DNA of 64,000 nucleotides. Source: Microlunatus parietis (GTDB taxonomy: Bacteria > Actinomycetota > Actinomycetes > Propionibacteriales > Propionibacteriaceae). Each line of letters starts with the position of its first letter. Positions within the stretch are counted from its first letter, which is position 1. The notes beneath the pieces are model-generated. The model made no database searches. It worked only from the letters and a program-made list of their open reading frames with translations, and was not told the DNA's origin. A program made the translations under genes and the position numbers. Below are positions 3,396 to 57,854 of the stretch, in pieces. Location of the stretch: the NCBI RefSeq assembly GCF_013407955.1, contig NZ_JACCBU010000001.1, forward strand, positions 1,612,001-1,676,000, in the 5' to 3' direction.

Positions 3396-4175
3396 ATGAC
3401 GATCCACGCAGACCACGGCGCCCATGGCGACCATGCCGCCCACGCGGGGCACGGTCCCGGCGGGCTGACGGTCTCGGAGCGGGGCTACACGGTGCGGCCG
3501 GACTCGGTGATCCTGGCGGCCGGGCGGCAGCCGATCACGTTCCGGATCATCGGGCCGGACGGAGCGCCGGTCACCGCGTTCGAGCCGACGCACGACAAGG
3601 AACTGCATCTGATCGCGACCCGGCGCGACCAGACCGGTTTCCAGCACGTGCACCCGACGCTGGACGAGTCCGGCACCTGGACCGTCGAGCTGGACCTGAC
3701 CCCGGGCGTCTGGCGCTACTTCGCGGACTTCAAGCCGGCCGGTCATGATCAACTGACGCTCGGGGTCGACGTCTCGGTCGCCGGCGAGTTCGACCCGCAG
3801 CCACTGCCGCCGGTCCAGCCGACGTTCCGGATCGACGACTACACGGTGACGCTCACCGGCGAGCTCCAGGCCGGGCAGCCGGCCGAGCTGACCCTTACGG
3901 TGCAGCGCGACGGGCAGCCGGTCACCGACCTGGAGCCCTACCTGGCGGCGTACGGGCACCTGGTCGCGCTGCGGGCCGGCGACCTGGCCTACCTGCACGT
4001 CCATCCGGAGGGACACCCGGGCGACGGGAGCACGCCGGCCGGGCCGGACGTCGTGTTCGTCGCGACCGCCCCGAGCCCCGGCACCTACCGGCTCTACCTG
4101 GACTTCCAGCACGGCGGCGTGGTCCGCACGGCGTCGTTCACGGTCGAGGCCGGCCGGCCGCACCACCATCACTGA
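3396..4175 (+). CDS. His-rich probable metal-binding protein behind a CsoR-like operator
   Basis: 259 residues. The N-terminus is a run of His, Ala and Gly (MTIHADHGAHGDHAAHAGHG) and the C-terminus ends HHHH. Two similar beta-rich modules follow, each with a metal-type histidine cluster: HLIATRRDQTGFQHVHP near residue 70 and GHLVALRAGDLAYLHVHPEGHP near residue 195. No signal peptide or membrane helix is visible, unlike most secreted relatives with this H-x-H-P motif. GGAGGAGG is 5 bases before ATG 3396. Position behind the copper-type operator suggests a copper buffer or chaperone; this is inference. AhpD-like and MFS genes follow. Confidence 0.7.
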   Translation: MTIHADHGAHGDHAAHAGHGPGGLTVSERGYTVRPDSVILAAGRQPITFRIIGPDGAPVTAFEPTHDKELHLIATRRDQTGFQHVHPTLDESGTWTVELDLTPGVWRYFADFKPAGHDQLTLGVDVSVAGEFDPQPLPPVQPTFRIDDYTVTLTGELQAGQPAELTLTVQRDGQPVTDLEPYLAAYGHLVALRAGDLAYLHVHPEGHPGDGSTPAGPDVVFVATAPSPGTYRLYLDFQHGGVVRTASFTVEAGRPHHHH

Positions 4176-4186
4176 GGACGCGCCCG

Positions 4187-4699
4187 ATGCCACGGCTCAG
4201 CGCCCTCACCCCGGACACGGCGACCGGCAAGTCCCAGGAACTGCTCGGTGAGCTGGTCGCCCGGCACGGCCAGGTCGGCGCGATGGTCTCGACCATGGCG
4301 CACTCCCCCGCCGTGCTGGGCGGCTACCTGCAGCTCAGCCGGGCCATGGGTCGGGCCAAGCTCGACCGCAGGCTCAGCGAACGGATTTCGATCGCCGTGC
4401 AGACCCTGCAGGGCTGCGGGCTCTGCCTGGAGTCGCACGTCGCGGCCGCGCGCAAGCTCAAGATCACCGAGGAGGAGATCGACCACGCCCGCGCCGGCCG
4501 GTCGGTCGATCCCAAGATCACCGCGATCATCGATCTCGCGCTCCGGGTGTACCGGGAGCCCACGTCGATCACCGACGAGCAGATCGACGAGCTTCGTCGC
4601 CACGGCTACAGCGACCGCGAGATCGCCGATGTCGTGGGCATCGTCGCCCTCAACCTGCTCACCGGCGCCTTCAATCTCGTAGCCGGGCTGCGCCCCTAG
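4187..4699 (+). CDS. Carboxymuconolactone decarboxylase / AhpD-like protein
   Basis: 170 residues. The AhpD redox motif is visible as CGLCLESHVAAARK (two Cys in CxxC with a following His) near residues 78-90, after helix LSERISIAVQTLQG. AhpD-like proteins are peroxidase-linked disulfide reductases, but many CMD proteins have other or unknown roles. The gene begins 11 bases after the His-rich gene and has GAGGA upstream, so it is probably co-transcribed and under the same CsoR-like control. The specific substrate is not readable. Confidence 0.85.
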   Translation: MPRLSALTPDTATGKSQELLGELVARHGQVGAMVSTMAHSPAVLGGYLQLSRAMGRAKLDRRLSERISIAVQTLQGCGLCLESHVAAARKLKITEEEIDHARAGRSVDPKITAIIDLALRVYREPTSITDEQIDELRRHGYSDREIADVVGIVALNLLTGAFNLVAGLRP

Positions 4700-4724
4700 T
4701 GTCGACCGAGAAAGATCAACTTCG

Positions 4725-6026
4725 ATGAGCCTGTTCGCGCTCCGCGACTACCGGCGCCTGTTCAGCGCCCAGGTGATCGCGCTGTTCGGCACCGGGCTGG
4801 CGACGGTCGCCCTCGGCCTGCTCGCCTACGAGCTCGCCGGCCCGCGGGCCGGCGCCGTGCTCGGCACCGCGCTCACCATCAAGATGATCTTGTACGTGAT
4901 CGTCGCGCCGATCGCCGCCGCCTACGTGGACCGACTCCCCCGGCGACTGTTCCTGGTGATCTTGGACGTGGTCCGCGGCGCCGTGGTGATCGCGCTCCCG
5001 TTCGTCACCGAGATCTGGCAGATCTACCTGTTGATCGGCCTGCTGCAGACCGCCTCGGCGGCGTTCACGCCGACCTTCCAGGCGGTGATCCCGGACATCG
5101 TGACCGAGGAGGCCGACTACACCCGGGCGCTGTCGGCCTCCCAGCTCGCCTACACCATGGAGAGCCTGCTCAGCCCGGTGCTGGCCGCGCTCGCCCTGAC
5201 CTTGATCGACTTCAACTGGCTGTTCGTCGGCACAGCGGTCGGGTTCGCCGGGTCGGCCGTGCTGGTGCTGTCCACCCGGATCCCGAACGCACGGCCCAAC
5301 CCACACGCCGGCGCGTTCGACCGGGTCGCCGCCGGGATCCGCAGATTCGTGGTGACTCCACGGCTGCGCGGCGTGCTGGCGCTGAACCTGGTGGTCGCCT
5401 CGGCCGGCTCGATCGTGATCGTCAACACGGTCAACTACGTCCGGGACCGACTCGGCGGCAGCCAGTCCGACGTGGCCTGGCTGCTCGCCGCGTCGGGCGC
5501 CGGGACCTTGATCATCGCGCTGCTGCTGCCCAAGGTGCTGGACCGGATCGCCGAACGTCCGGCCATGATCACCGGCGGCTTCCTGCTGGTGCTGGCAGTG
5601 ACCGGCGCAGTCGTGATCGTCAACTCAGCAACGGGAACCGCTGCCTGGGTCAGTACGGCGATCGCCTGGTTCGCCGTCGGCGCCGGGATGGCGCTGGTGA
5701 TCACGCCGACCGGCCGGGTGCTGCGCCGCTCGGTGGCGCCGAGCGGGTTGCCCGAGGTGTTCGCGGCCCAGTTCTCGCTGTCCCACCTGGCCTGGCTGCT
5801 GACGTACCCGATCGCCGGCTGGCTGGCCCTGCAGGCCGGCCTGAGCACCACCTGGATCGTGCTCGGCGCGCTGGCCGCAGCCGGCGCCGGGACCGCGCTC
5901 CTGGTCTGGCCGCGCCGCGAACCCGTACCGGCCGGGGCCGAGCCGACCCAAGCCGAGCTCAGCGACGCCGAAGCCGCCGAGTGCACGCTGATCGCCGGTC
6001 AGTGCGCCTGCGTCCGACCCGTCTGA
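4725..6026 (+). CDS. MFS transporter
   Basis: 433 residues with about 12 hydrophobic segments and the MFS loop DRLPRRLFLV after helix 2. The pattern fits drug/metabolite exporters of the MFS_3 type. The C-terminal tail is unusual: EAAECTLIAGQCACVRPV carries three Cys including a CxC near the end, which might bind metal. It starts 25 bases after the AhpD-like gene on the same strand, so it may complete the putative copper-responsive operon. Whether it moves a metal complex or an unrelated compound cannot be decided. Confidence 0.8.
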   Translation: MSLFALRDYRRLFSAQVIALFGTGLATVALGLLAYELAGPRAGAVLGTALTIKMILYVIVAPIAAAYVDRLPRRLFLVILDVVRGAVVIALPFVTEIWQIYLLIGLLQTASAAFTPTFQAVIPDIVTEEADYTRALSASQLAYTMESLLSPVLAALALTLIDFNWLFVGTAVGFAGSAVLVLSTRIPNARPNPHAGAFDRVAAGIRRFVVTPRLRGVLALNLVVASAGSIVIVNTVNYVRDRLGGSQSDVAWLLAASGAGTLIIALLLPKVLDRIAERPAMITGGFLLVLAVTGAVVIVNSATGTAAWVSTAIAWFAVGAGMALVITPTGRVLRRSVAPSGLPEVFAAQFSLSHLAWLLTYPIAGWLALQAGLSTTWIVLGALAAAGAGTALLVWPRREPVPAGAEPTQAELSDAEAAECTLIAGQCACVRPV

Positions 6027-41201: not shown

Positions 41202-42134
41202 ATGACCGACAGCCCGACTTCGTACGCGTCCGGTTGGGGCGTGGCGACGATCCACGACAGCGGCCAGGTGCTGGACACCTACTATCCGGCGCCGACCCTG
41301 GACCGGCTGCCCGCCGAGCCGCCCGCCGAGCTGGCCGGTGCCGCCGCCACCGATCCGGTGCGGCGGGTGCGGACCGAAGTGGTCGGGACCGAGATCGACC
41401 TCACGGCCGGCCCGGCCGACGCCGCGGACGCGTACCTGCGGCTGCACCTGCTGAGCCACCGGCTGGTCCGGCCCTGGCAGGTCAACCTGGACGGGATCTT
41501 CGGCGCCCTGGCCAACGTGGTCTGGACCTCGGCCGGGCCGTGCGCGGTGGACGGCTTCGAGGAGGTCCGGACTCGGCTGCGGACCGAGCGCGGCCACCTG
41601 ACGGTGTTCGGCGTGGACAAGTTCCCGCGGATGATCGACTACGTGGTGCCGGCCGGGGTGCGGATCGCCGACGCGGACCGGGTCCGGCTCGGCGCCCACC
41701 TGGCCGAGGGCACCGTGGTGATGCACGAGGGCTTCGTCAACTACAACGCCGGCACCCTGGGCAAGGCCATGGTGGAAGGCCGGATTTCGGCCGGCGTGAT
41801 CATCGGCAGGGACTCCGACGTCGGCGGCGGCGCATCGATCATGGGCACCCTGTCCGGCGGTGGCAAGCAGGTGATCTCGGTCGGCGAGCGCTGCCTGCTC
41901 GGCGCCAACTCCGGCCTCGGCATCCCGCTCGGTGACGACTGCGTGGTCGAAGCCGGCCTGTACGTCACCGAGGGGACCAAGATCACCCTGCCGGACGGAC
42001 GGGTGATCAAGGCGATCGAGCTGGCCGGCCAGAACGGGCTGCTGTTCCTCCGCAACTCGGTCACCGGCAAGGTGGAGGTGCGCAACCGGCAGGGCAAGGC
42101 GGTCGAGCTGAACGCCGCCCTGCACGCGCATTGA
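41202..42134 (+). CDS. dapD: Tetrahydrodipicolinate N-succinyltransferase (actinobacterial DapD)
   Basis: 310 residues. It transfers succinyl from succinyl-CoA to tetrahydrodipicolinate. The start SYASGWGVATIHDSGQVLDTYYP is typical of mycobacterial DapD. The C-terminal half is a left-handed beta-helix with hexapeptide repeats: VRLGAHLAEGTVVMHEG, GRISAGVIIGRDSDVGGGAS and CLLGANSGLGIPLGDDCVVEAG. Divergent from the DUF2975 gene; the following lipoprotein begins 2 bases after its stop. Confidence 0.93.
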   Translation: MTDSPTSYASGWGVATIHDSGQVLDTYYPAPTLDRLPAEPPAELAGAAATDPVRRVRTEVVGTEIDLTAGPADAADAYLRLHLLSHRLVRPWQVNLDGIFGALANVVWTSAGPCAVDGFEEVRTRLRTERGHLTVFGVDKFPRMIDYVVPAGVRIADADRVRLGAHLAEGTVVMHEGFVNYNAGTLGKAMVEGRISAGVIIGRDSDVGGGASIMGTLSGGGKQVISVGERCLLGANSGLGIPLGDDCVVEAGLYVTEGTKITLPDGRVIKAIELAGQNGLLFLRNSVTGKVEVRNRQGKAVELNAALHAH

Positions 42135-42136
42135 TC

Positions 42137-42964
42137 ATGATCGGGAAACGTACCGCCGGGCTGGTCGCGGCGTTCGCCCTGGTCGTCGCCGCACCGGCCT
42201 GCTCCGGTCTCACCGAAGGCGTCCGGCCGTCGATCGCGGACAGCTGCATGATCACCACCGAGGAGACCTCGGTGGTGATCGACCTGGAACAGTCCCGGTA
42301 TGCGGCGCTGATCGCCGGGCTCACCCTGAAACGGTCACTGCCGGCCCGGGCCGCCTCGATCGCCCTGACCACGGCCTACCAGGAATCCGAGATCCGCAAC
42401 ATCGACTACGGCGACCGCGATTCGCTCGGGCTGTTCCAGCAGCGGCCGTCCCAGGACTGGGGCACGCCGAAGCAGATCATGGACCCGTACTACTCGACCG
42501 GGGCCTTCTACGACGCCTTGGTCAAGATCAAGAACTGGCAGCAGCGGGACATCACCGAGGTGGCCCAGGCGGTGCAGATCAGTGCCTACCCGGACGCCTA
42601 TCGTGATCATGAGTCGGACGGCCGGGCGCTGGCCAGCGCCCTGACCGGGCACTCCCCCGCCGCCATCGCCTGCCTCGACCGCAGCCCCGACGCGGGCGAC
42701 GCGAAGGGGCTGGCTTCGGCCCTGCAGAAGACGTTCGGGAAGATCAAGATCGGCCGCGAGGGCGACACGGTGACGATCACCGCCAAGTCCGACACCGCCG
42801 CGTGGGCGTACGGGCAGTTCGCCGTCGCCAACCTGAAGACCTACGGCGTCGCGGCGGTCACCGTCGGTGATCAACACTGGCAGAGCGTCGCCGACGAACG
42901 GGCCGGCTGGTCCGCCGCGGAGGAGCCGGCCGAGGCGCGTCAGGTGATCATCACGGTTCGGTGA
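42137..42964 (+). CDS. Lipoprotein with lysozyme/SLT-like domain of unknown role
   Basis: 275 residues from ATG 42137. A lipoprotein signal is present (AGLVAAFALVVAAPACSGL, lipid Cys about 24). The middle resembles soluble lytic transglycosylase-like domains of actinobacteria: TAYQESEIRNIDYGDRDSLG then LFQQRPSQDWGTPKQIMDP, then a YPDAYRDHES segment. Glu in QESEIRN could be catalytic. Similar proteins are conserved next to dapD-like genes, but activity is not established. Translationally coupled to dapD. Confidence 0.7.
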   Translation: MIGKRTAGLVAAFALVVAAPACSGLTEGVRPSIADSCMITTEETSVVIDLEQSRYAALIAGLTLKRSLPARAASIALTTAYQESEIRNIDYGDRDSLGLFQQRPSQDWGTPKQIMDPYYSTGAFYDALVKIKNWQQRDITEVAQAVQISAYPDAYRDHESDGRALASALTGHSPAAIACLDRSPDAGDAKGLASALQKTFGKIKIGREGDTVTITAKSDTAAWAYGQFAVANLKTYGVAAVTVGDQHWQSVADERAGWSAAEEPAEARQVIITVR

Positions 42965-42997: not shown

Positions 42998-43429
42998 TCA
43001 GAACGCGGTGATCGCCGCGGCGACGGCCAGGCCGATGCCGAACAGATAGGTGCCCACCGCCCCGATCATCCGCTGAGGATCCTCCGCGGCAAGGGTGCTC
43101 GCCGTCACCATCCCGTACGCGTGGAGCAGCCGGGCCACGGTCGCGCCGATGATCAACGGCAGCGCCACCCAGACCGGGGCGAGGGCGCCGACCAGCAGGA
43201 ACAGCAGCATCAGCGTCGGGACGTACTCGCTCGCATTGCCGTGCGCCCGCACCGCGATGAACAGCGGATCGGCCGGATCGGTGGGCAGTTGCGAGCCACC
43301 CTGCCGAGCCGTCACGCCGCGCAGCCGGGACACGTTGAAGCCGAGCAGGAAGATCATCGCGGCCAGGACGGCGGTGCAGACGATCGCCGTGATCAGGCCG
43401 AGGCCGAGGGAGTCGAGGTTGGTGATCAT
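42998..43429 (-). CDS. MAPEG-family membrane protein
   Basis: 143 residues with four hydrophobic segments. MAPEG (membrane-associated proteins in eicosanoid and glutathione metabolism) signatures: the basic/Asn/Glu patch FIAVRAHGNASEYVPTLML near residues 55-75, and an N-terminal helix ending LLGFNVSRLRG. Members conjugate or reduce substrates with glutathione. It is last in the three-gene thiol operon, its start overlapping the gshB stop by 4 bases, which strongly suggests use of the thiol made by the other two. Confidence 0.85.
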   Translation of the reverse strand: MITNLDSLGLGLITAIVCTAVLAAMIFLLGFNVSRLRGVTARQGGSQLPTDPADPLFIAVRAHGNASEYVPTLMLLFLLVGALAPVWVALPLIIGATVARLLHAYGMVTASTLAAEDPQRMIGAVGTYLFGIGLAVAAAITAF

Positions 43430-44397
43430 GCTGATGTCCTTTCCAGACAGGGGTCCAGGAGGTGGTCGAGCAGGTCGGCGCAGAGCGTCCAGCCGAGCAG
43501 CGCGTCGGCCTTGCGCAGTCCGCCGACACTGGTCACGTTGATCTCGATCAGGTACGGGCCGATGACGTCCAGCCCGGCCAGCCGGACGCCCATTCGGCGC
43601 AGGTCCGGGTCCAGCCGGGCGCAGATCTCCCGGTCCCGCGCGGTGATCGGTGCCTTGGCGCTGGGCTGGCCGATCCGGAAGTCGCCGCCGGCCGGGAAGC
43701 GATAGACCGCGGCCACCGGTGTCCCGTCGACCACGAAGACCCGCTTGTTGCCGGCCGCGACCTGCCGCAGATACCGCTGCACCAGCACCGGCCGGGAGCC
43801 GAGCGCGGTGCTGATCTCGATCAACGAGGCGAGATTCGGGTCGTGCCGGTCCAGCCGGAGTACGCCGCGGCCGGAGAACCCGTCCACGGGTTTGATCACC
43901 GCCGTGCCGTGCTCGGCCAGGAAGTCGCGGACGGTCCGTTCGGCGGCGGTCACCGTGGTCGGCGGGACAAGATCAGGAAAGCGGAGCGGGAACAGGTGCT
44001 CGCTGCACTCCCGCAAGGACTGCGGGGCGTTCACCAGCACCGTACTGGCCGGGTCGATCAGGTCCATGATCAACGTCGCGGCGGTGAAGACCTCGTCGAC
44101 CGGCGGCTCGGTACGCAGGAAGACCGCGGCCGTCTCGTCCAGCCAGACCGGCCGGGTGTCCAGTACGGCGAACCACGGGTCCGGCACCCGCCAGCGGCAG
44201 CCGCGGTCCGGCCGGGCCGGCGCCAGCTCGATCCGCCGGGCCCCGGCGCGGGCGCGGCCGTCGACCGCCTCCAGCCTGCCCGCCTCGGTCACCCACACCT
44301 CCGCGCCGAGTTCCTGGGCGGCGTGCATCAGCCCGACGCTGGTGTCGGTCGCCGCGTCCAGCCGCTCCAGCGGGTCGGCGACGAACGCGATCCTCAT
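43426..44397 (-). CDS. gshB: Glutathione synthetase-type ATP-grasp enzyme
   Basis: 323 residues, normal for bacterial GshB. N-terminus MRIAFVADPLERLDAATDTSVGL matches the family's DxxxxxxxDxS motif. ATP-grasp: AVIKPVDGFSGRGVLRL near residue 175 and the hallmark LIEINVTSVGGLRKAD near residue 290 (GshB has EINVTSPTG). It should join glycine to gamma-glutamylcysteine with ATP. The middle gene of the operon, overlapped on both sides (4 bases each). A GshB homologue is unusual in a mycothiol-type actinomycete. Confidence 0.87.
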   Translation of the reverse strand: MRIAFVADPLERLDAATDTSVGLMHAAQELGAEVWVTEAGRLEAVDGRARAGARRIELAPARPDRGCRWRVPDPWFAVLDTRPVWLDETAAVFLRTEPPVDEVFTAATLIMDLIDPASTVLVNAPQSLRECSEHLFPLRFPDLVPPTTVTAAERTVRDFLAEHGTAVIKPVDGFSGRGVLRLDRHDPNLASLIEISTALGSRPVLVQRYLRQVAAGNKRVFVVDGTPVAAVYRFPAGGDFRIGQPSAKAPITARDREICARLDPDLRRMGVRLAGLDVIGPYLIEINVTSVGGLRKADALLGWTLCADLLDHLLDPCLERTSA

Positions 44398-45380
44398 CGC
44401 GCACCGCCGGCGCCGATCGCGCTGCCGGCGATGGCCAGCAGTTCAGCCGCCTGCGGGGCGTGCCCGGCCGCGGCCTCGGCCCAGGCCCGGTCCTGTTCGC
44501 CGGCCCGGGGCAGCAGCAGGTCGAGCGCGTCCCGGCGGGCACCGGGGTCGGTCAGCAGCGTCGCGACGGTCCGGACCGCGGCCTCGATCCGGTGGGCCGG
44601 CTGGGCGTCCAGGTAGCGCAGTTCGAGGTAGCCGCCGCGAGGCCGTACCGGCGGGAACAGGGTGGTCAGGTGATAGGCCGGGTCGGTGGTCTCCGGGATC
44701 GGCAGCCGCGGCGCCGCCGCGGCGAACGCCAGATAGGCGGCGACCGGATCGGCCGGGTCGAGATGCCGCCCGTCGTAGCCGGTCCGGACCGGGTCGAGGG
44801 CGCGCCAGATCCGGGTCCGTTCGCCGCCGGAGTTGTCGAACGCCACCGTCAGCGCGGGCCCGGCCAGGTTCGCGACCAGCCACTGCTCGCGCCCCGCGGG
44901 CCCGGGCAGCAGATCCACCGCCAGTTGTAGGGACGCGGTCAGCCGCATCATCCGGCGCCCGGCCGGTCCGGTCCGGTCGAAGATCGCCTGCATCGCCGTG
45001 TAGCGCGGCGTCGGCGTCCGCAGCGGCACCTCCGCCCAGCCGTGGTACGGGTTCACGCCGGTCGCCACCAGCCGAACACCGCGGGACCGCGCGATCGCCT
45101 CCGCCCGCTCGATCAGCCGGCCCAAATCCGCGACCAACTCGGCCGGCCCGGGCCGCGGCGCGGGGCTCAGTTCCAGCTGCCCGCCAGGCTCGAAACTGGG
45201 CCTGGCCGCGGCCACGAAGGCCGGATCGAACCCGGCGGTCAGGGCGGCCGGATCGACCGGACCGGGCCGGCTGGGATCGCTGACCGGGATCAGTTCGACC
45301 TCGGCCCCGATCAGGCCCGGACGGCGCGAGGGGGCGAACAGCTGCCGTACCGCCCGGCTCAGGTGTCTGGTCTGCTTCAT
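44394..45380 (-). CDS. gshA: Glutamate-cysteine ligase, GCS2/EgtA type
   Basis: 328 residues. It should make gamma-glutamylcysteine. Signatures: LIGAEVELIPV near residue 24, RPSFEPGGQLELSPAP near 60, RRMMRLTASLQLAVDL near 145, and YHLTTLFPPVRPRGGYLEL then RYLDAQPAHRIEAAV near 235-265. The last two strings resemble EgtA of ergothioneine synthesis, so egtA is a possible name; but no egtB/C/D are present and gshB overlaps its stop, so a glutathione-like product is favoured. First gene of the operon, divergent from the LuxR regulator. Confidence 0.82.
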   Translation of the reverse strand: MKQTRHLSRAVRQLFAPSRRPGLIGAEVELIPVSDPSRPGPVDPAALTAGFDPAFVAAARPSFEPGGQLELSPAPRPGPAELVADLGRLIERAEAIARSRGVRLVATGVNPYHGWAEVPLRTPTPRYTAMQAIFDRTGPAGRRMMRLTASLQLAVDLLPGPAGREQWLVANLAGPALTVAFDNSGGERTRIWRALDPVRTGYDGRHLDPADPVAAYLAFAAAAPRLPIPETTDPAYHLTTLFPPVRPRGGYLELRYLDAQPAHRIEAAVRTVATLLTDPGARRDALDLLLPRAGEQDRAWAEAAAGHAPQAAELLAIAGSAIGAGGAR

Positions 45381-45454
45381 GCCGCTACGGTCGCCCCGCT
45401 ACCGGTACCGCAACATCAGTGGTGGCACGCAATCCGGTACTGCATACTGCGCCC

Positions 45455-48298
45455 ATGGGGCCCGATCCGGGGACGGCCGACCCGCTCTTCGGGCGGCAGC
45501 TGGAGCTGGCTCTGTTGCGCCGTCGGCTGGCCGAGGCCCGGGCCGGCACCGGGCAGCTGGTCCTGGTCACCGGGCCGGCCGGCATCGGCAAGACTCGGCT
45601 GGTCGAGGAGCTGGTGGCCGAGGCTCCCGGGCCGGTCGGCTGGGGTACGGCCCTCGCCGATGCCGGGATGCCCGCGCTGTGGCCCTGGGCCCGGGCGTTG
45701 CGCGGCTGGCCGGGCCCGGCCGACGCCGTGGCCGCGCTGGCAGCCGGCGCCGGCGAACGCGGCCAGGCGTCCGTCGAGGATGCCGCGGCCGCGACCTTCG
45801 CGGCCGACACCGCTGTGCTGGATGCCCTGGCCGACTGCGCCGCGGCCCGGCCCGGGTTGCTGATCGTGCTGGACGACCTGCACTGGGCCGACCAGCCGAC
45901 GCTGCGGCTGCTGGACCGGCTCGCCGCCGAGATCCGCCGGCTGCCGCTGCTGCTGGTCGGCACCCACCGGGAGTCGATCGGCGACGGCTTCGCCGACTCG
46001 CCCGCGCAGCGGGCCAGCGAACTGATCGGGCTGGCGCCGTTGTCCCCCGCCGAGTCGGCCGCGATGCTGGCCGCCTCGGTCGCGCAGGCCGACGCCGCCG
46101 CGGTACGGCACGCGACCCGGCTGTCCGGCGGCAGCCCGCTGCTGTTGCGCACGCTGGCCCGGGTCGCCGGCAGCCAGTTGCGCGGCCGGCGGGCCTGGGA
46201 CGACACGGTCGGCGAGCAGCCCGAGCTGAGGCACCTGGTCGCCGTCGCGCTCCGTACCGCCGGGCCGGACGCCGCGGCGCTGGTCGAGGGCCTCAGCGTG
46301 CTGGGCACGGAGGCCGAGCCCGGTCTGCTGGCCGACCTGGTCGGCGGCACCGGTCCGGTGCTGGACCGGCTGCGTCCCGCCGCGCCGGCGGGGCTGGTGC
46401 AGTTCCCGGCGAACGGGACCCGGGTCCGGTTCGCGCACGGGCTGCTCCGGGATGCCGTCTACGCCTCGATCCCGGCCGCGCGGCGGGCCGAACTGCACCG
46501 GGCGGCCGCGTTGCTGCTGGAACCGCAGGCCGTCGGCGGCGACGACCGGGCCGGCGCGGTCGCCCGGCACTGGCAGCGAGCGGGCGAACCGGCCCAGGCC
46601 GCGGTCTGGGCGATCCGGGCCGCCGACTCGGCCCGCGTGGCCGGCAGCTACTCGGAGGCGGCCCGGTATCTGCAGCTGGCCCTCGACGCCGGCTCCGACG
46701 CCGCCGTCGACCGGGCCGAACTCCTGCTGGACCTGGCCCGGGTGCAGTACCTGAGCGGCCGGCTGGAGGACAGCATCGCGACCTGTCTGAGGGCGGCCGA
46801 CGAGGGTGACCGGACCGGTCGGGGCGAGGTGCTCTGCCGGGCCGCGCTGATCGTGCAGGGGCTGGCGCACCCGACGATCAACCGGCAGCTGCTCGGCCTG
46901 TGCCGGCGGGCGCTGGACCGGTTGGGCGCGGACGGGCCGCCGCGGCTGTGGGCCCGGGTGGAGGCGCAGCTGGCCTGCGTACTGCTGGAGCTCGACCTGA
47001 TCGACGAAGCCCGCCCGGCGGCACGGATCGCGTACGACCACGCGGTGGCAGCCGGCGACGCCGACGCCGAACTGGACGCGCTCCGCGCCCGGGTCACGCT
47101 GGAGTGGCGGCCCGGCCGCGACGCCGAGGCGATCGCGATCGGCCGCCGAACCCTGGACCTGGCGGAGCGTACCGGCCGGCCGCTGGCCCAGCTGTGGGCC
47201 CGGGTCTGGTGCTCGGACGCAGCGATGCACCTGGCCGACCTGGCGGCGGCACAGCGCGAGCTCGGCGCCATCGAGCTGCTGGCCGACCGGACCGGGCTGC
47301 CGCTGGTCCGCTGGCACCTGCTGCGACGGCAGGCCACGCAGGCGGCGCTGGTCGGCGATTTCGTACGGAGTCGACGACGTGCCGCCGAGGCCGCGGAGAT
47401 CGCGGCCGACTGGGGCGATCAGTCGGTGTCCTTCACCCATTTCGGGCAGTCGATCTTCATCGCGGTGGTCCGGGGCGACCCGGCCGACCTCAGTCCGGGC
47501 TGGACCGAGCTGCTGCGGGATCTGAGCCGGTTCCCGTTGGTGGGCCAGGCAGCGCTGGCCCAGGCGTTGCTGCTGGTCGGCCGGCGGGAGGAAGCGGCGG
47601 CGCTCTACCGGGCCGCACTGCCCGGCGTGGACGACCCGAACCGGGTGATGGCCACGGCGGTGTTGTCCTTCCTGCCCGAACTGGCCATCGCGCTCGGCGA
47701 CTCCGACACCTGCCGGTCACTGCGGCAACTGATCGAGGAGACCTTCGGCAGCACGGTGATCATGGGCTCCGGCACCATCTACTACAGCGGCGCGATCGCC
47801 CGGATCCTCGGCGGGCTGTCGCTGGCTCTCGGCGAACCGACGCGGGCGATCGAGCAGTACGAAACCGGGCTGCGCATCGACGAACGGATCGGCGCCCGGC
47901 CCTTCCTGGCCCACGGGCACCTCGGCCTGGCGCGCGCCCTGACCGCGAGCGGCGCCTACCGCCGCGCCGCCGAGCACGCCCGGACTGCCGCCGAGTTGGC
48001 CCGCCGGCTGGACCTGCCCGGTCCACTGCGGACCGCGGAGGCGCTGCTCGCCGCCCTGCTGCCCGGCGAGCGGGCGGCCGACCCGCTGAGCAGCCGGGAG
48101 CGCGAGGTGCTCGTACTCGTGGCCCGGGCGCTGACCAATCGGGAGATCGCGGCCCGCCTCGTCCTGTCCGAGCGCACCGTGGAGAGCCACGTCCGGCGCA
48201 TCCTGGCCAAGACCGGCCTCAGCACCAGGACCGAGCTGACCCGCTGGCACCTCGGTCTGTCCGAACCGGCCGGGTCGGGCCGGGATGATCATGCCTAG
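45455..48298 (+). CDS. Large LuxR-family ATPase regulator (LAL/MalT type)
   Basis: 947 residues from ATG 45455. N-terminal AAA ATPase: Walker A TGPAGIGKTRLVEEL near residues 37-51, Walker B LLIVLDDLHWADQPTL near 135; the middle is TPR-like helical repeats (residues 380-850); C-terminal LuxR HTH: LSSREREVLVLVARALTNRE, then IAARLVLSERTVESHVRRIL. LAL regulators often control nearby accessory operons. It is divergent from gshA across 74 bases with two short palindromes (TACCGGTA, CGGTACCG), so it probably controls the thiol operon. Confidence 0.88.
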   Translation: MGPDPGTADPLFGRQLELALLRRRLAEARAGTGQLVLVTGPAGIGKTRLVEELVAEAPGPVGWGTALADAGMPALWPWARALRGWPGPADAVAALAAGAGERGQASVEDAAAATFAADTAVLDALADCAAARPGLLIVLDDLHWADQPTLRLLDRLAAEIRRLPLLLVGTHRESIGDGFADSPAQRASELIGLAPLSPAESAAMLAASVAQADAAAVRHATRLSGGSPLLLRTLARVAGSQLRGRRAWDDTVGEQPELRHLVAVALRTAGPDAAALVEGLSVLGTEAEPGLLADLVGGTGPVLDRLRPAAPAGLVQFPANGTRVRFAHGLLRDAVYASIPAARRAELHRAAALLLEPQAVGGDDRAGAVARHWQRAGEPAQAAVWAIRAADSARVAGSYSEAARYLQLALDAGSDAAVDRAELLLDLARVQYLSGRLEDSIATCLRAADEGDRTGRGEVLCRAALIVQGLAHPTINRQLLGLCRRALDRLGADGPPRLWARVEAQLACVLLELDLIDEARPAARIAYDHAVAAGDADAELDALRARVTLEWRPGRDAEAIAIGRRTLDLAERTGRPLAQLWARVWCSDAAMHLADLAAAQRELGAIELLADRTGLPLVRWHLLRRQATQAALVGDFVRSRRRAAEAAEIAADWGDQSVSFTHFGQSIFIAVVRGDPADLSPGWTELLRDLSRFPLVGQAALAQALLLVGRREEAAALYRAALPGVDDPNRVMATAVLSFLPELAIALGDSDTCRSLRQLIEETFGSTVIMGSGTIYYSGAIARILGGLSLALGEPTRAIEQYETGLRIDERIGARPFLAHGHLGLARALTASGAYRRAAEHARTAAELARRLDLPGPLRTAEALLAALLPGERAADPLSSREREVLVLVARALTNREIAARLVLSERTVESHVRRILAKTGLSTRTELTRWHLGLSEPAGSGRDDHA

Positions 48299-49568: not shown

Positions 49569-49785
49569 CCTCGCCGACCGGGCAGAACCGCACCCGTATT
49601 GACGGCGTGTCGCTGCCGTTGTGCCCAGTGGGCGGAGAGGGTGGCGATGGCAGGTGTGCGGTGACGGAAGGCGTGGCGCGGGGCAGGTCAGACGAACCGG
49701 GGACAGCCTGGCGGGCCGACGTGAGAGCCGGGACGGCGGGAACGACGCGGGAGCCGGGACCGCGGAGCCGACGCGGGAACATTTA

Positions 49786-49940
49786 CCGCGGGACCGACGC
49801 GGGAACCTGGACCGCGGGACCGACGGGGAACCGGAACCGCGGGACCGACACCGGAACCGAGACCGCGGGACCGACACCGGAACCGAGACCGCGGGACCGA
49901 CACCGGAACCGAGACCGCGGGACCGACACGAGAACCGAGA
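49786..49940. repeat. 26-bp tandem repeat array
   Basis: Unit CCGCGGGACCGACACCGGAA CCGAGA occurs as three identical copies (49837-49862, 49863-49888, 49889-49914) with variant copies on both sides (49786-49811, 49812-49836, 49915-49940). More diverged copies extend from about 49730 to 50100. A 26-bp period is not a multiple of 3, so it is not a coding repeat. No spacers, so not a CRISPR. Confidence 0.85.
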
Positions 49941-50294
49941 CCGCGGGGACCAATCCGGGAATCGAGACGGCGGGGTCGCCGCGGAGCGGGACAGGGATCG
50001 GGACATGGGAAGCCGTGATTCGGCGAAACCGGGAGCGATGACAACGGGCCAACGCGGGAGCCGGACCGCGGGGCCAACACGGGAGACCACGGGGGCCGAA
50101 GCGAGCGGGGACGGCGGGGCTGCCGCGGAGCGGGACACAGCCGGCACCGAGACCGACGCGGAACGGGACACGGAAGCTGTGATTCGGCGAACGAGAGCGG
50201 GATCGAGACTCGGCGACCGGGACGCGGACGCGGGATTCAGCGCACGGATCGGACGAGTGTGGTGCGGATCGGATTCATGATCACATCGAGCCAC

Positions 50295-50355: not shown

Positions 50356-50730
50356 GGGGTGCGGCAGGCTGACCGGCCGCAGGCCCGCAGACAACTCGGC
50401 GCGGGGTGCCCGCGTCGCACATCCTGGTTTCGATCCGCTCGCTTGCCGGCGCCGCTCGATAGCGTGGACGTTGGCGCGCCGTCCGGTGAACCCTGTTCCA
50501 CGTTGTCCGAAGCACATCGCAGGCCCGCCTCCGGCCTCGCGCACCCCAGCCGACGTGCGCTTCCGGCCCCGCGAACCTCAACCCCGCGCACCTCACAAAC
50601 CCGTGCACCACCGGCCCCGCGATCTCCAGCCCCGTGCACCTCCGGCCACGCGCACACCTCGGCCCGCGCCTCGACCGCGGCACCTCCGGCCTCGTGCAAC
50701 TCGGCCCCGTGCGCCTCCGACCATGCGCAG

Positions 50731-50850
50731 CTCGGCACCGCGTAGCCCGGCACCGCGCAACCCGGCACCGCGCAACCCGGCACCGCGCAACCCGGCCCAG
50801 CGCAACCCGGCCCAGCGCAACCCGGCGCTGTGCAGCCCGGGCCTGTGCAG
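50731..50850. repeat. 15-bp tandem repeat array
   Basis: Eight consecutive 15-bp units of type CCCGGCACCGCGCAA: three identical (50746-50790), two CCCGGCCCAGCGCAA (50791-50820) and diverged ends; weaker repeats extend from about 50540 to 51030. The period keeps reading frames open; one - strand frame reads repeats of A-G-L-R-G, reminiscent of pentapeptide repeats, but there is no clear start, ribosome site or conserved flank. Confidence 0.85.
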
Positions 50851-51140
50851 CTTCCGCCCAGCGCAGCTCAGGCCTCGCGCACCCTCGGCCCACACGCTCC
50901 GGCCCGGCTCACACCTCGGCCCGTGCCCCACGCCTCCGTACGCCGTTGCAACTCGGCCCCGTACCCGACGGCCCGTGCAGCTCGACCCCCGTGCACCTCA
51001 ATCCCGCGCACCTCCGGCCCCGCACAGCTCCGGCCCGCGCTCTGGTCCGGCGCCTCGGCGAGGGCCCGGTCTGGCACCCGCCTCCCCTTCGCTCCAGCCC
51101 CCGATGCCGATCCCGCATTCCCACCGCTCCGTCGACTGGG

Positions 51141-51195: not shown

Positions 51196-52299
51196 TTAGA
51201 GGCGGGTGGCTGCGGAGGCGATGTGGGCGTCGGTGGCGGTGAGGGCGATCCGGACGTAGCGTTCGGCGGCCTCGCCGTAGAAGTCGCCGGGGGCGGCCAG
51301 GATGCCGTGCTCGGCCAGGAAGTCGATCGTGGCTCGGCCCGGCTCGTCGCGTGTGGCCCAGAGGTAGATCGAGCCCTCGGAGTGTTCGATCCGGAAGCCG
51401 GCGCGTTCCAGGGCCGGCCGCAGGGTGGCGCGCCGGGCCAGATAGCGGTCCCGCTGCTCCCGTACATGATCATCGTCGGCGAGCAACGTGATCATCGCCT
51501 GCTGGACAGGCCGCGGAACGATCATGCCGGCGTGCTTGCGTACGGCCAGCAGGCGGGTCACCAGGTCCTGGTCGCCGCCGATGAAACCGGCCCGGTAGCC
51601 GGCCAGGTTGGACCGCTTGGACAGCGAGTGCACGGCCAGAAGTTGATCATGGGAGCCGCCGCAGATGTCCGGGGCCAGCACCGACACCGGGTCGGCCTCC
51701 CAGCCGAACTCGCCGTAGCACTCGTCCGACGCCACGACGGCGCCGCGCTCGCGGGCCCAGGCGACCCGCCGGGCCAGTTCGTCGCCGGCCAGGATCTGAC
51801 CGGTCGGGTTGGACGGCGAGTTCAGCCAGACCAGCCCGGGCCGGAGATCGCCGAGCGTTTCAAGATCATCACAGGGCACCGGGGTGCAGCCGGCGATCAG
51901 GGCGCCCACCGCATAGGTCGGGTACGCCATCGTCGGCACCACCACCGTGTCGCCGGCGCCGAGCCCGAGCAGCGTCGGCAGCCAGGCTACGAACTCCTTG
52001 GTCCCGATCACCGGCATCGTCGCCTCGGCGGCCAGGCCGACGGCCGCCCAGCGCCGAACCAGGTAGTCCGCGATCGCCGCCCGCAGCTCGGCGGTGCCGG
52101 AGGTCAACGGGTAACCGGGACTGTTCGCCGCCTCGGCCAGCGCCTGCTGCGCGATCGCCGGCACCGGGTCGACCGGCGTACCGACGGAGAGGTCGACCAG
52201 GCCTTCGGGGTGCGCGGCGGCCAGCTTCCGGGCACCGTCCAGGCTGTCCCAAGGGAAATCGGGCAGCGCGGCGACGCCCGACCGCGCGGTGTCCGTCAC
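51196..52299 (-). CDS. dapC: Succinyldiaminopimelate transaminase
   Basis: 367 residues from GTG 52299, which overlaps the fdxC stop by 4 bases (GTGA). It is a class I/II PLP aminotransferase: LVDLSVGTPVDPVP, PGYPLTSGTAELRAAIADYL, NSPSNPTGQIL, and the PLP lysine in VHSLSKRSNLAGYRAGF near residue 225. It converts N-succinyl-2-amino-6-ketopimelate to succinyl-diaminopimelate. The fdxC-dapC order is the same in mycobacteria (Rv1177-Rv1178). Confidence 0.93.
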   Translation of the reverse strand: MTDTARSGVAALPDFPWDSLDGARKLAAAHPEGLVDLSVGTPVDPVPAIAQQALAEAANSPGYPLTSGTAELRAAIADYLVRRWAAVGLAAEATMPVIGTKEFVAWLPTLLGLGAGDTVVVPTMAYPTYAVGALIAGCTPVPCDDLETLGDLRPGLVWLNSPSNPTGQILAGDELARRVAWARERGAVVASDECYGEFGWEADPVSVLAPDICGGSHDQLLAVHSLSKRSNLAGYRAGFIGGDQDLVTRLLAVRKHAGMIVPRPVQQAMITLLADDDHVREQRDRYLARRATLRPALERAGFRIEHSEGSIYLWATRDEPGRATIDFLAEHGILAAPGDFYGEAAERYVRIALTATDAHIASAATRL

Positions 52300-56945: not shown

Positions 56946-57854
56946 CTAGACGTCGAGCCCCGCGAAGATGTCGTCGGCCCAGCCGGTGCCCGGGAACGGT
57001 TTCCCCGCGGCGAGCCGGAAGTGCTCCCGGGACCAGACCTCGCTGCCGAACGTACCGCCGAGCGTGAAGAACGGGTCGTCAAGATTGATCTGGGTCGCGT
57101 GCGCCTTCATGGCGGCATGCTTGCGGTCGACGTAGTCCTGGCCGTCGATCTCGACCGCGATCGCCTCGTCCGAGCTGACCATCTTGGGCGTCTCCGCGGT
57201 CTCGAACTCCTTCCAGGTCTCGGTGTCGCCGGCAGCCCGGAGCGCGGCGATCCGCTCCCGCATCCGGCGCGCGCTCATCGCCGACCAGAGCACCCGCTCC
57301 ACCTGCCACGGCTCGCCGAGGTCCGGCCGGTAGCTGGGCACGCCCGCGAGCTGGTACGCATACATGGCGACCCGGTGGGCCTGGACGTGGTCCGGATGCC
57401 CGTACCCGCCGAACTCGTCGTAGCAGATCAGCACCTGGGGCTTCCGGTCCCGGATGATCGGCACCAGCAGGTCCGCGGCCTCGAGCAGGTCGGCGGACCA
57501 GAAGATGCCGTCGCGCAGCTCGGTCCGCGCCGTGGCATGGCCGTTCTCGTCCCACAACATCCCCGAATCCCGGTAGTGCCCGTCGCCGCCGAGCCGCACG
57601 TAGTCGGTCACCCCGAGCGCCTCCATCGCGGCATCCAGCTCGCCGATCCGGTGTTCGCCGAGCCGGTCCTCGTGGCCGGCCGCGAGGTGGCCGAGCGAGT
57701 CGACCAGGACCTCGCCCTCCTCGCCGAGGGTGCAGGTCACCAGGGTGACCTTGGCCCCCTCGTCGGCGTACTTCGCCATCGTGACGCCGGTGCCCAGCGT
57801 CTCGTCGTCGGGGTGGGCGTGCACCAGGAGCAGTCGTCGATCAGTCACATTCAC
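56946..57854 (-). CDS. mshB: Mycothiol-pathway deacetylase MshB
   Basis: 302 residues. It removes acetate from GlcNAc-inositol in mycothiol synthesis, using zinc. Motifs: LLLVHAHPDDETLGTGVTMA with metal ligands His14 and Asp17, YDEFGGYGHPDHVQAHRVAM with the third ligand His. Length is normal. It may also act on mycothiol conjugates (Mca-like), but the GlcNAc-Ins type is favoured by the early motif context. Its presence predicts mycothiol, which matters for the gsh-like operon 12 kb away. Start GTG 57854 or 57848. Confidence 0.93.
   Translation of the reverse strand: MNVTDRRLLLVHAHPDDETLGTGVTMAKYADEGAKVTLVTCTLGEEGEVLVDSLGHLAAGHEDRLGEHRIGELDAAMEALGVTDYVRLGGDGHYRDSGMLWDENGHATARTELRDGIFWSADLLEAADLLVPIIRDRKPQVLICYDEFGGYGHPDHVQAHRVAMYAYQLAGVPSYRPDLGEPWQVERVLWSAMSARRMRERIAALRAAGDTETWKEFETAETPKMVSSDEAIAVEIDGQDYVDRKHAAMKAHATQINLDDPFFTLGGTFGSEVWSREHFRLAAGKPFPGTGWADDIFAGLDV

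Follow-up and report, generated by a model that had tools for sequence, protein, structure and literature searches.

What would genes of glutathione type do in a soil actinomycete that also carries genes for mycothiol? The question is raised by a three-gene operon of Microlunatus parietis, situated in a 64,000-nucleotide stretch (the window) that covers positions 1,612,001-1,676,000 of its 7.24 Mb genome, which is one contig; feature coordinates are window positions unless a locus handle precedes them. We propose, with moderate confidence, that the operon is an acquired gamma-Glu-Cys-based conjugation module that produces glutathione or a very close analogue beside mycothiol. In the proposed pathway, a GCS2 ligase would join glutamate, through its gamma-carboxyl, to cysteine, and a GshB-family ligase would add a C-terminal residue, most likely glycine, to give glutathione or a very close analogue. 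A MAPEG membrane thiol transferase would then conjugate this thiol to lipophilic electrophiles, and an MFS transporter, encoded alongside in many carriers, would export the conjugate.

A glutathione-type operon in a genome with mycothiol genes

The operon consists of gcl, gshB and mapeg, in that order on the minus strand, with each adjacent pair overlapping by 4 bases. The overlaps noted in the original prediction are exact, and its family calls are borne out by all three products exceeding their Pfam cut-offs. The first gene, gcl (44394..45380, minus strand), encodes a shortened, EgtA-like enzyme of the GCS2 family that resembles glutamate-cysteine ligase (78 bits, cut-off 21). The gshB-like gene (43426..44397, minus strand) encodes an ATP-grasp ligase that scores 165.3 bits against GSH-S_ATP (cut-off 23) and 100.4 bits against GSH-S_N (cut-off 21.3), and its closest solved relative is E. 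coli GshB (1gsa), matched at full length with E=4.9e-50. It also passes the NF003573 model (281.6, cut-off 272), and the equivalent protein of a related operon in Frankia passes both NF003573 and TIGR01380. The third gene, mapeg (42998..43429, minus strand), encodes a MAPEG membrane protein and putative membrane thiol transferase (53.8 bits, cut-off 23.4), for which an NCBIfam search gave no match. These family matches, the full-length homology to 1gsa and the gcl/gshB overlaps all argue for the proposed pathway, as do the single ligase and GshB clades described below.

The MAPEG protein provides a further argument. The MAPEG proteins from all nine operon-type loci that have one match Pfam MAPEG at E <= 0.001 and keep R61, N65, E68 and R100, with Y69 invariant as well. 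The spacing of the first four residues is identical to that of Arg51, Asn55, Glu58 and Arg90 in human MGST2, an equivalence inferred from the spacing. According to the cited passages of PMC7979937, MGST2 holds glutathione by its glycyl carboxylate through Arg51 and by its gamma-glutamyl amine through Glu58, and Arg104 activates the thiol. The match in spacing to these glutathione contacts speaks for the proposed pathway. Across 396 genomes of the phylum, MAPEG searches matched six and only five passed the cut-off, namely our own and four of one actinobacterial family. That mapeg nevertheless recurs in 9 of 12 operon-type loci is another point in favor of the proposed pathway. As a separate observation, two loci from those four genomes (L198-L201) were read and have no obvious glutathione genes within ~1 kb of the MAPEG gene.

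The host has a mycothiol background. The window carries mshB (56946..57842, minus strand; TIGR03445, 310.2 bits, cut-off 224.35), and mshC is found elsewhere in the genome (604 bits, cut-off 485.1); together they indicate mycothiol, which agrees with the earlier proposal, here as there a capacity read from genes. MshC is over its cut-off in 10 of the 12 carrier genomes, both exceptions being metagenome-assembled genomes (MAGs). Genes of the ergothioneine pathway present another picture. The genome search that had been suggested for egtB and egtD (egtC was not searched for) found no egtD at E <= 0.001, with a model that works, since a gene close to an EgtA-type ligase scores 367.4 with it (cut-off 290.9). 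The best egtB match reaches 115 bits, below the cut-off of 360, and is a 314-residue protein with an FGE-sulfatase domain, of the sulfatase-modifying-factor type, that covers only model positions 170-411. A second GCS2 protein, encoded at 2.54 Mb, is of the YbdK type (NF010041, 465.3, cut-off 332).

Phylogeny, recurrence and probable insertion site of the module

EgtA is the nearest named family of the ligase by NCBIfam, as had been predicted from its motifs, with a score (TIGR03444, 144.4 bits) far below the cut-off of 370.8. The ligase retains E27, E29, EPGGQxELS and TLFPPVRPRGGYLExR, which are motifs common to EgtA and to the ligase of the Gordonia styrene plasmid. In a tree of 110 rows, 12 operon rows fall on one side of a branch with a Shimodaira-Hasegawa-like approximate likelihood ratio (SH-aLRT) support of 98, and in a tree of 39 chosen rows, 10 operon rows form one clade (100/100) on a long branch. 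Because both trees are midpoint-drawn and their root is uncertain, this clade may lie inside or beside EgtA. The suggested phylogeny against EgtA thus recovered a distinct clade, and the recruitment from EgtA that had been proposed is plausible. The trees also suggested independent origins for the operon and Gordonia-type ligases. We do not claim this, since constraining the two to one clade was not rejected (approximately unbiased test, p = 0.26). Separately, the ligase of an uncultured Marmoricola MAG (L148:1-309, 4157-4921) groups with that of the Gordonia styrene plasmid and has a partial gshB nearby, so another glutathione cluster in Nocardioidaceae is possible.

In the GshB tree, for which the program gave a long-branch warning, the eight operon rows form one clade (100/99) that is sister to the GshB of the Gordonia CWB2 styrene plasmid (98/91); the operon and the Gordonia cluster probably share GshB ancestry. 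A different class of GshB-like proteins, represented by 29 rows from several searches, forms a separate clade. Within the family, 23 of 198 genomes (L012-L034) have such a GshB-like ATP-grasp protein, in varied contexts, and most rows read EVNVFSPGGLGS or close to it. These 23 matches (30-36% identity) were rejected as instances of the operon because they belong to the separate clade and because L012, the sole one scanned, is assigned to NF009110 (434, cut-off 408).

Related loci came from the named scan, a single scan with two short peptide patterns in which 186 matching stretches gave 88 confirmed relatives and 80 retained loci; with only two patterns, its count is a lower bound. An operon-type ligase, assigned by the neighboring module genes, occurs in 11 of these loci, scattered among actinomycetes. 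The carriers, several of which are drafts or MAGs, are M. speluncae SYSU K12189, Frankia nepalensis, Amycolatopsis bullii, A. jejuensis, Pseudonocardia hydrocarbonoxydans, a Jatrophihabitans MAG, a Pseudonocardiales MAG, Pedococcus bigeumensis, the MAG UBA9676 (partial), Phycicoccus Soil802 and a Euzebyaceae MAG in which gshB is broken. Counting the window, the 12 loci comprise a mosaic module with gshB in nine (one broken), mapeg in nine and an adjacent MFS gene in seven (one partial); some loci end near the module, which makes absences less sure at L105 and L108. The 4-base gcl/gshB overlap is present in seven of the eight loci with an intact gshB, the other (L102) having a 5-base gap. The neighboring MFS genes match Pfam MFS_3/MFS_1, with the frame split in L101 (P. 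hydrocarbonoxydans) and L102, and their adjacency in 7 of 12 loci supports the export step. In A. bullii and A. jejuensis, mapeg follows gcl directly, with a 4-base overlap in A. jejuensis. Two further arrangements were observed: in P. hydrocarbonoxydans the gene immediately upstream of gcl (L101:4635-5852) belongs to the Na_H_Exchanger family, and the operon-type ligase frame of MAG UBA9676 (L105:1-1335) runs into MFS-like sequence, through deletion, fusion or an assembly artefact.

Regulatory genes also recur. The window operon faces a divergent AAA/LuxR-type gene and putative operon regulator (45419..48298, plus strand; Pfam AAA_16 and GerE), which M. speluncae has in the same arrangement (76% identity) and which is found in Frankia and the Pseudonocardiales MAG as well. 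A TetR-type regulator is divergent in A. bullii and Pedococcus and lies downstream in Phycicoccus. This recurrence is consistent with an inducible module. No glutathione S-transferase (GST) or monooxygenase is present among the 18 module-neighbor proteins scanned, a result that extends neither to the remaining neighbors nor to the genome at large. Frankia has a gene of the glyoxalase superfamily on the far side of the regulator.

The operon is rare. GshB searches at E <= 1e-20 matched 25 of 198 family genomes, and the operon type is confined to our own genome and M. speluncae (83%), which makes 2 of 20 genomes of the genus, all 20 of which have dapD. Among the 396 phylum genomes, GshB matched six (our own and five at 31-36%) and the ligase 54, with the next best at 48% in a locus that also has broken gshB pieces. 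Searches of plasmid records revealed no close relative of either protein: GshB matched 165, all below 60% identity, the best among the 40 listed being Gordonia at 38.5%, and the ligase matched 23, all below 40%, with Gordonia at 33.1% over 81% of the query.

On its left the operon is bordered by a plus-strand gene that we take to be dapD (41202..42134) and a lipoprotein-like gene (42131..42964, plus strand), for which a Pfam search gave no match and which adjoins dapD in 7/7 relatives fetched; it is a conserved flank outside the module. The right flank of the site, beyond the regulator, is presumably dapC (51199..52299, minus strand; 83.6% by tblastn to its M. speluncae counterpart). Six of the 18 operon-free relatives in the genus were compared. 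Three of them have an uninterrupted run of dapD, lipoprotein gene, dapC and fdxA, in two other DNA fills the dapD-dapC gap, and in one dapC is outside the fetched stretch; L059-L061 have dapC adjoining the lipoprotein gene. Both the window and M. speluncae carry the operon and additional genes in the gap. The predicted break in dapD-dapC synteny is thus confirmed, the data fit insertion at a variable site, and this variability together with the patchy distribution in the genus is consistent with acquisition, as first suggested. Between mapeg and the lipoprotein gene, M. speluncae (L055:9712-12466) has two genes, one for an MFS protein and one for Thy1 (thyX). Thy1 is confirmed in both species; in the window its gene is located past the regulator, and there is no MFS gene. 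The site has accordingly been rearranged between the two. Beside the thyX-like gene of the window are two GC-rich tandem arrays, at 49711-49974 (period 26, ~10 copies) and 50612-50891 (period 15, ~18 copies).

Identity of the thiol and competing explanations

Several observations weigh against an acquired glutathione module. The GC content of the operon (0.732, against 0.707 for the window) gives no signal of foreign base composition, and its codon-position GC is ordinary. In the ligase, ~30 residues of EgtA and the Gordonia ligase are missing between A223 and P229, a gap specific to the clade. The window GshB falls just under the TIGR01380 cut-off (292.5, cut-off 299.05). The loop pattern R[GSC]NxxxG[GA] is found in none of the eight intact operon GshBs, as against 6/6 canonical GshBs (five proteobacterial and one from Gordonia, whose loop is a variant) and 27 of the 29 rows of the other class; where canonical proteins have RxN[LM]xxGG, those of the operon have DFRI. 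After ExNVTS, the canonical TSPT (6/6 canonical, 0/8 operon and 0/29 other-class rows) is replaced by TS[VP]G[GA]LRKADALLG in 8/8 operon proteins, which is seen in 0/6 and 0/29 of the others. R120, the candidate thiol-activating arginine of the MAPEG protein, is present in seven and missing in two of the nine, and no PDB structure matched this protein by sequence, profile search included. No MFS gene lies beside the window operon, and the best relative in its own genome is 31% identical, compared with 53% in M. speluncae. Finally, a search at E <= 1e-5 found no GshB in the genomes of A. bullii, A. jejuensis and MAG UBA9676; with 3 of the 12 carriers thus lacking a detectable gshB, the module does not depend on the tripeptide step. 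The simplest history for Amycolatopsis, in which the pair nests with the gshB-bearing Jatrophihabitans (99/91) inside the operon ligase clade, would be that gshB was lost and gcl, mapeg and (in A. jejuensis) the MFS gene were kept. These cases tie MAPEG more to the ligase product than to the tripeptide.

The identification of the product as glutathione in the original prediction, which also allowed another gamma-Glu-Cys-X peptide, is weakened by a GshB clade without the loop retained in 33 of the 35 remaining GshB-family rows, by the altered motif and by the two Amycolatopsis genomes in which gshB was not found. The same three observations carry the leading alternative, which we regard as a tentative possibility: the GshB-like enzyme may add a residue other than glycine, producing a new gamma-Glu-Cys-X thiol, with the MAPEG protein of Amycolatopsis using gamma-Glu-Cys itself. 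Haloarcula hispanica offers an analogue, in that the cited passages of PMC7278568 describe gshA and GSTs, no apparent GshB and probable use of gamma-Glu-Cys. Against this stand the NF003573 and Frankia scores, and the MAPEG proteins, those of Amycolatopsis included, retain the apparent counterpart of the MGST2 arginine that contacts the glycyl carboxylate. The residues following ExN point toward the acceptor in other ATP-grasp ligases, and this region of E. coli GshB includes a mobile active-site loop; acceptor contact by the changed segment is extrapolated from those enzymes, which also counts against the alternative. Should it hold, and we place this at the same tentative level, the locus would belong to an undescribed actinobacterial thiol system in which a divergent ligase pair supplies gamma-Glu-Cys-X (or gamma-Glu-Cys) to a MAPEG protein and an exporter, beside mycothiol.

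It is unlikely that the operon supplies ordinary glutathione for general redox buffering in addition to mycothiol, in the manner of Rhodococcus AD45, and that MAPEG is incidental. Coexistence of glutathione with mycothiol is known in actinomycetes, and the sister relationship to the Gordonia plasmid GshB would fit, but mapeg recurs in three quarters of the loci, among them loci without gshB. Slightly more doubtful still is the idea that the substrates of the ligases are unrelated and that they make, for instance, a small natural-product peptide for which the MFS protein is the exporter. Both ligases are divergent, and they have as neighbors MFS genes and regulators of the TetR or LuxR type, which are common around biosynthetic clusters; however, three independent glutathione-linked families stand side by side here, and MAPEG retains the glutathione-contact spacing. 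An EgtA role for the ligase within ergothioneine biosynthesis, for which its best NCBIfam model speaks, is rejected as very unlikely: the score is far below that model's cut-off, the genome search for egtB and egtD (it did not extend to egtC) found no egtD and left egtB below cut-off, none of the egtD-like genes seen near 61/69 EgtA-type ligases was observed near the operon, and the operon ligases form a separate clade.

Comparison with known thiol systems

The conjugation module that we favor has precedents in isoprene and styrene degraders. The cited passages of PMC6849523 describe Rhodococcus AD45 as making mycothiol besides glutathione and isoprene degraders as carrying gshA and gshB beside IsoMO genes; this two-thiol and gshA/gshB cluster precedent supports our reading. 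Those of PMC8552685 describe the use of the glutathione transferases StyI and StyJ by Gordonia CWB2, and present actinobacterial glutathione use so far as mostly a means of access to unusual carbon sources. We file the operon as working like glutathione biosynthesis, with a candidate GshB, coupled to membrane conjugation, on the principle of these clusters. If this is true, mycothiol organisms would have another route to a glutathione-like thiol, by way of a transferable module in which thiol synthesis is linked to a membrane transferase, and nature has already made the deletion that bears on the need of MAPEG for a third residue, in the gshB-less loci of Amycolatopsis. No title among the literature matches listed describes a gcl-gshB-MAPEG operon in actinomycetes, and an earlier mention is possible.

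The clusters compared, those of Rhodococcus AD45, Gordonia i37, Mycobacterium AT1 and the Gordonia rubripertincta CWB2 plasmid pGCWB2, likewise combine a GCS2 ligase and GshB in mycothiol actinomycetes. Their gshA and gshB are divergent, plasmid-borne and near styrene and GST genes, whereas the present genes are co-directional, lie on a 7.24 Mb contig, have MAPEG as partner and have no GST among the scanned neighbors. Relative to the Gordonia cluster, identity is 38.5% for GshB and 33.1% for the ligase, the GshB loop is lost, and some operon-type carriers lack gshB. With EgtA the ligase shares the GCS2 family and common motifs, but it scores far below the cut-off, has no egt genes seen beside it, belongs to a separate clade and is missing ~30 residues. 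The GshB-like enzyme is a full-length homologue of E. coli GshB (1gsa) with the KR, D and ExN positions in common, and differs in lacking the RxNxxxGG loop and in the motif after ExNVTS. Like human MGST2 and LTC4 synthase, the MAPEG protein has the Pfam MAPEG domain and the R-x3-N-x2-E spacing, yet it is bacterial and has no PDB match by sequence. The haloarchaeal gamma-Glu-Cys systems, as described in the cited passages, resemble the two Amycolatopsis loci in combining a ligase and thiol transferases without GshB, in another lineage and with other transferase genes.

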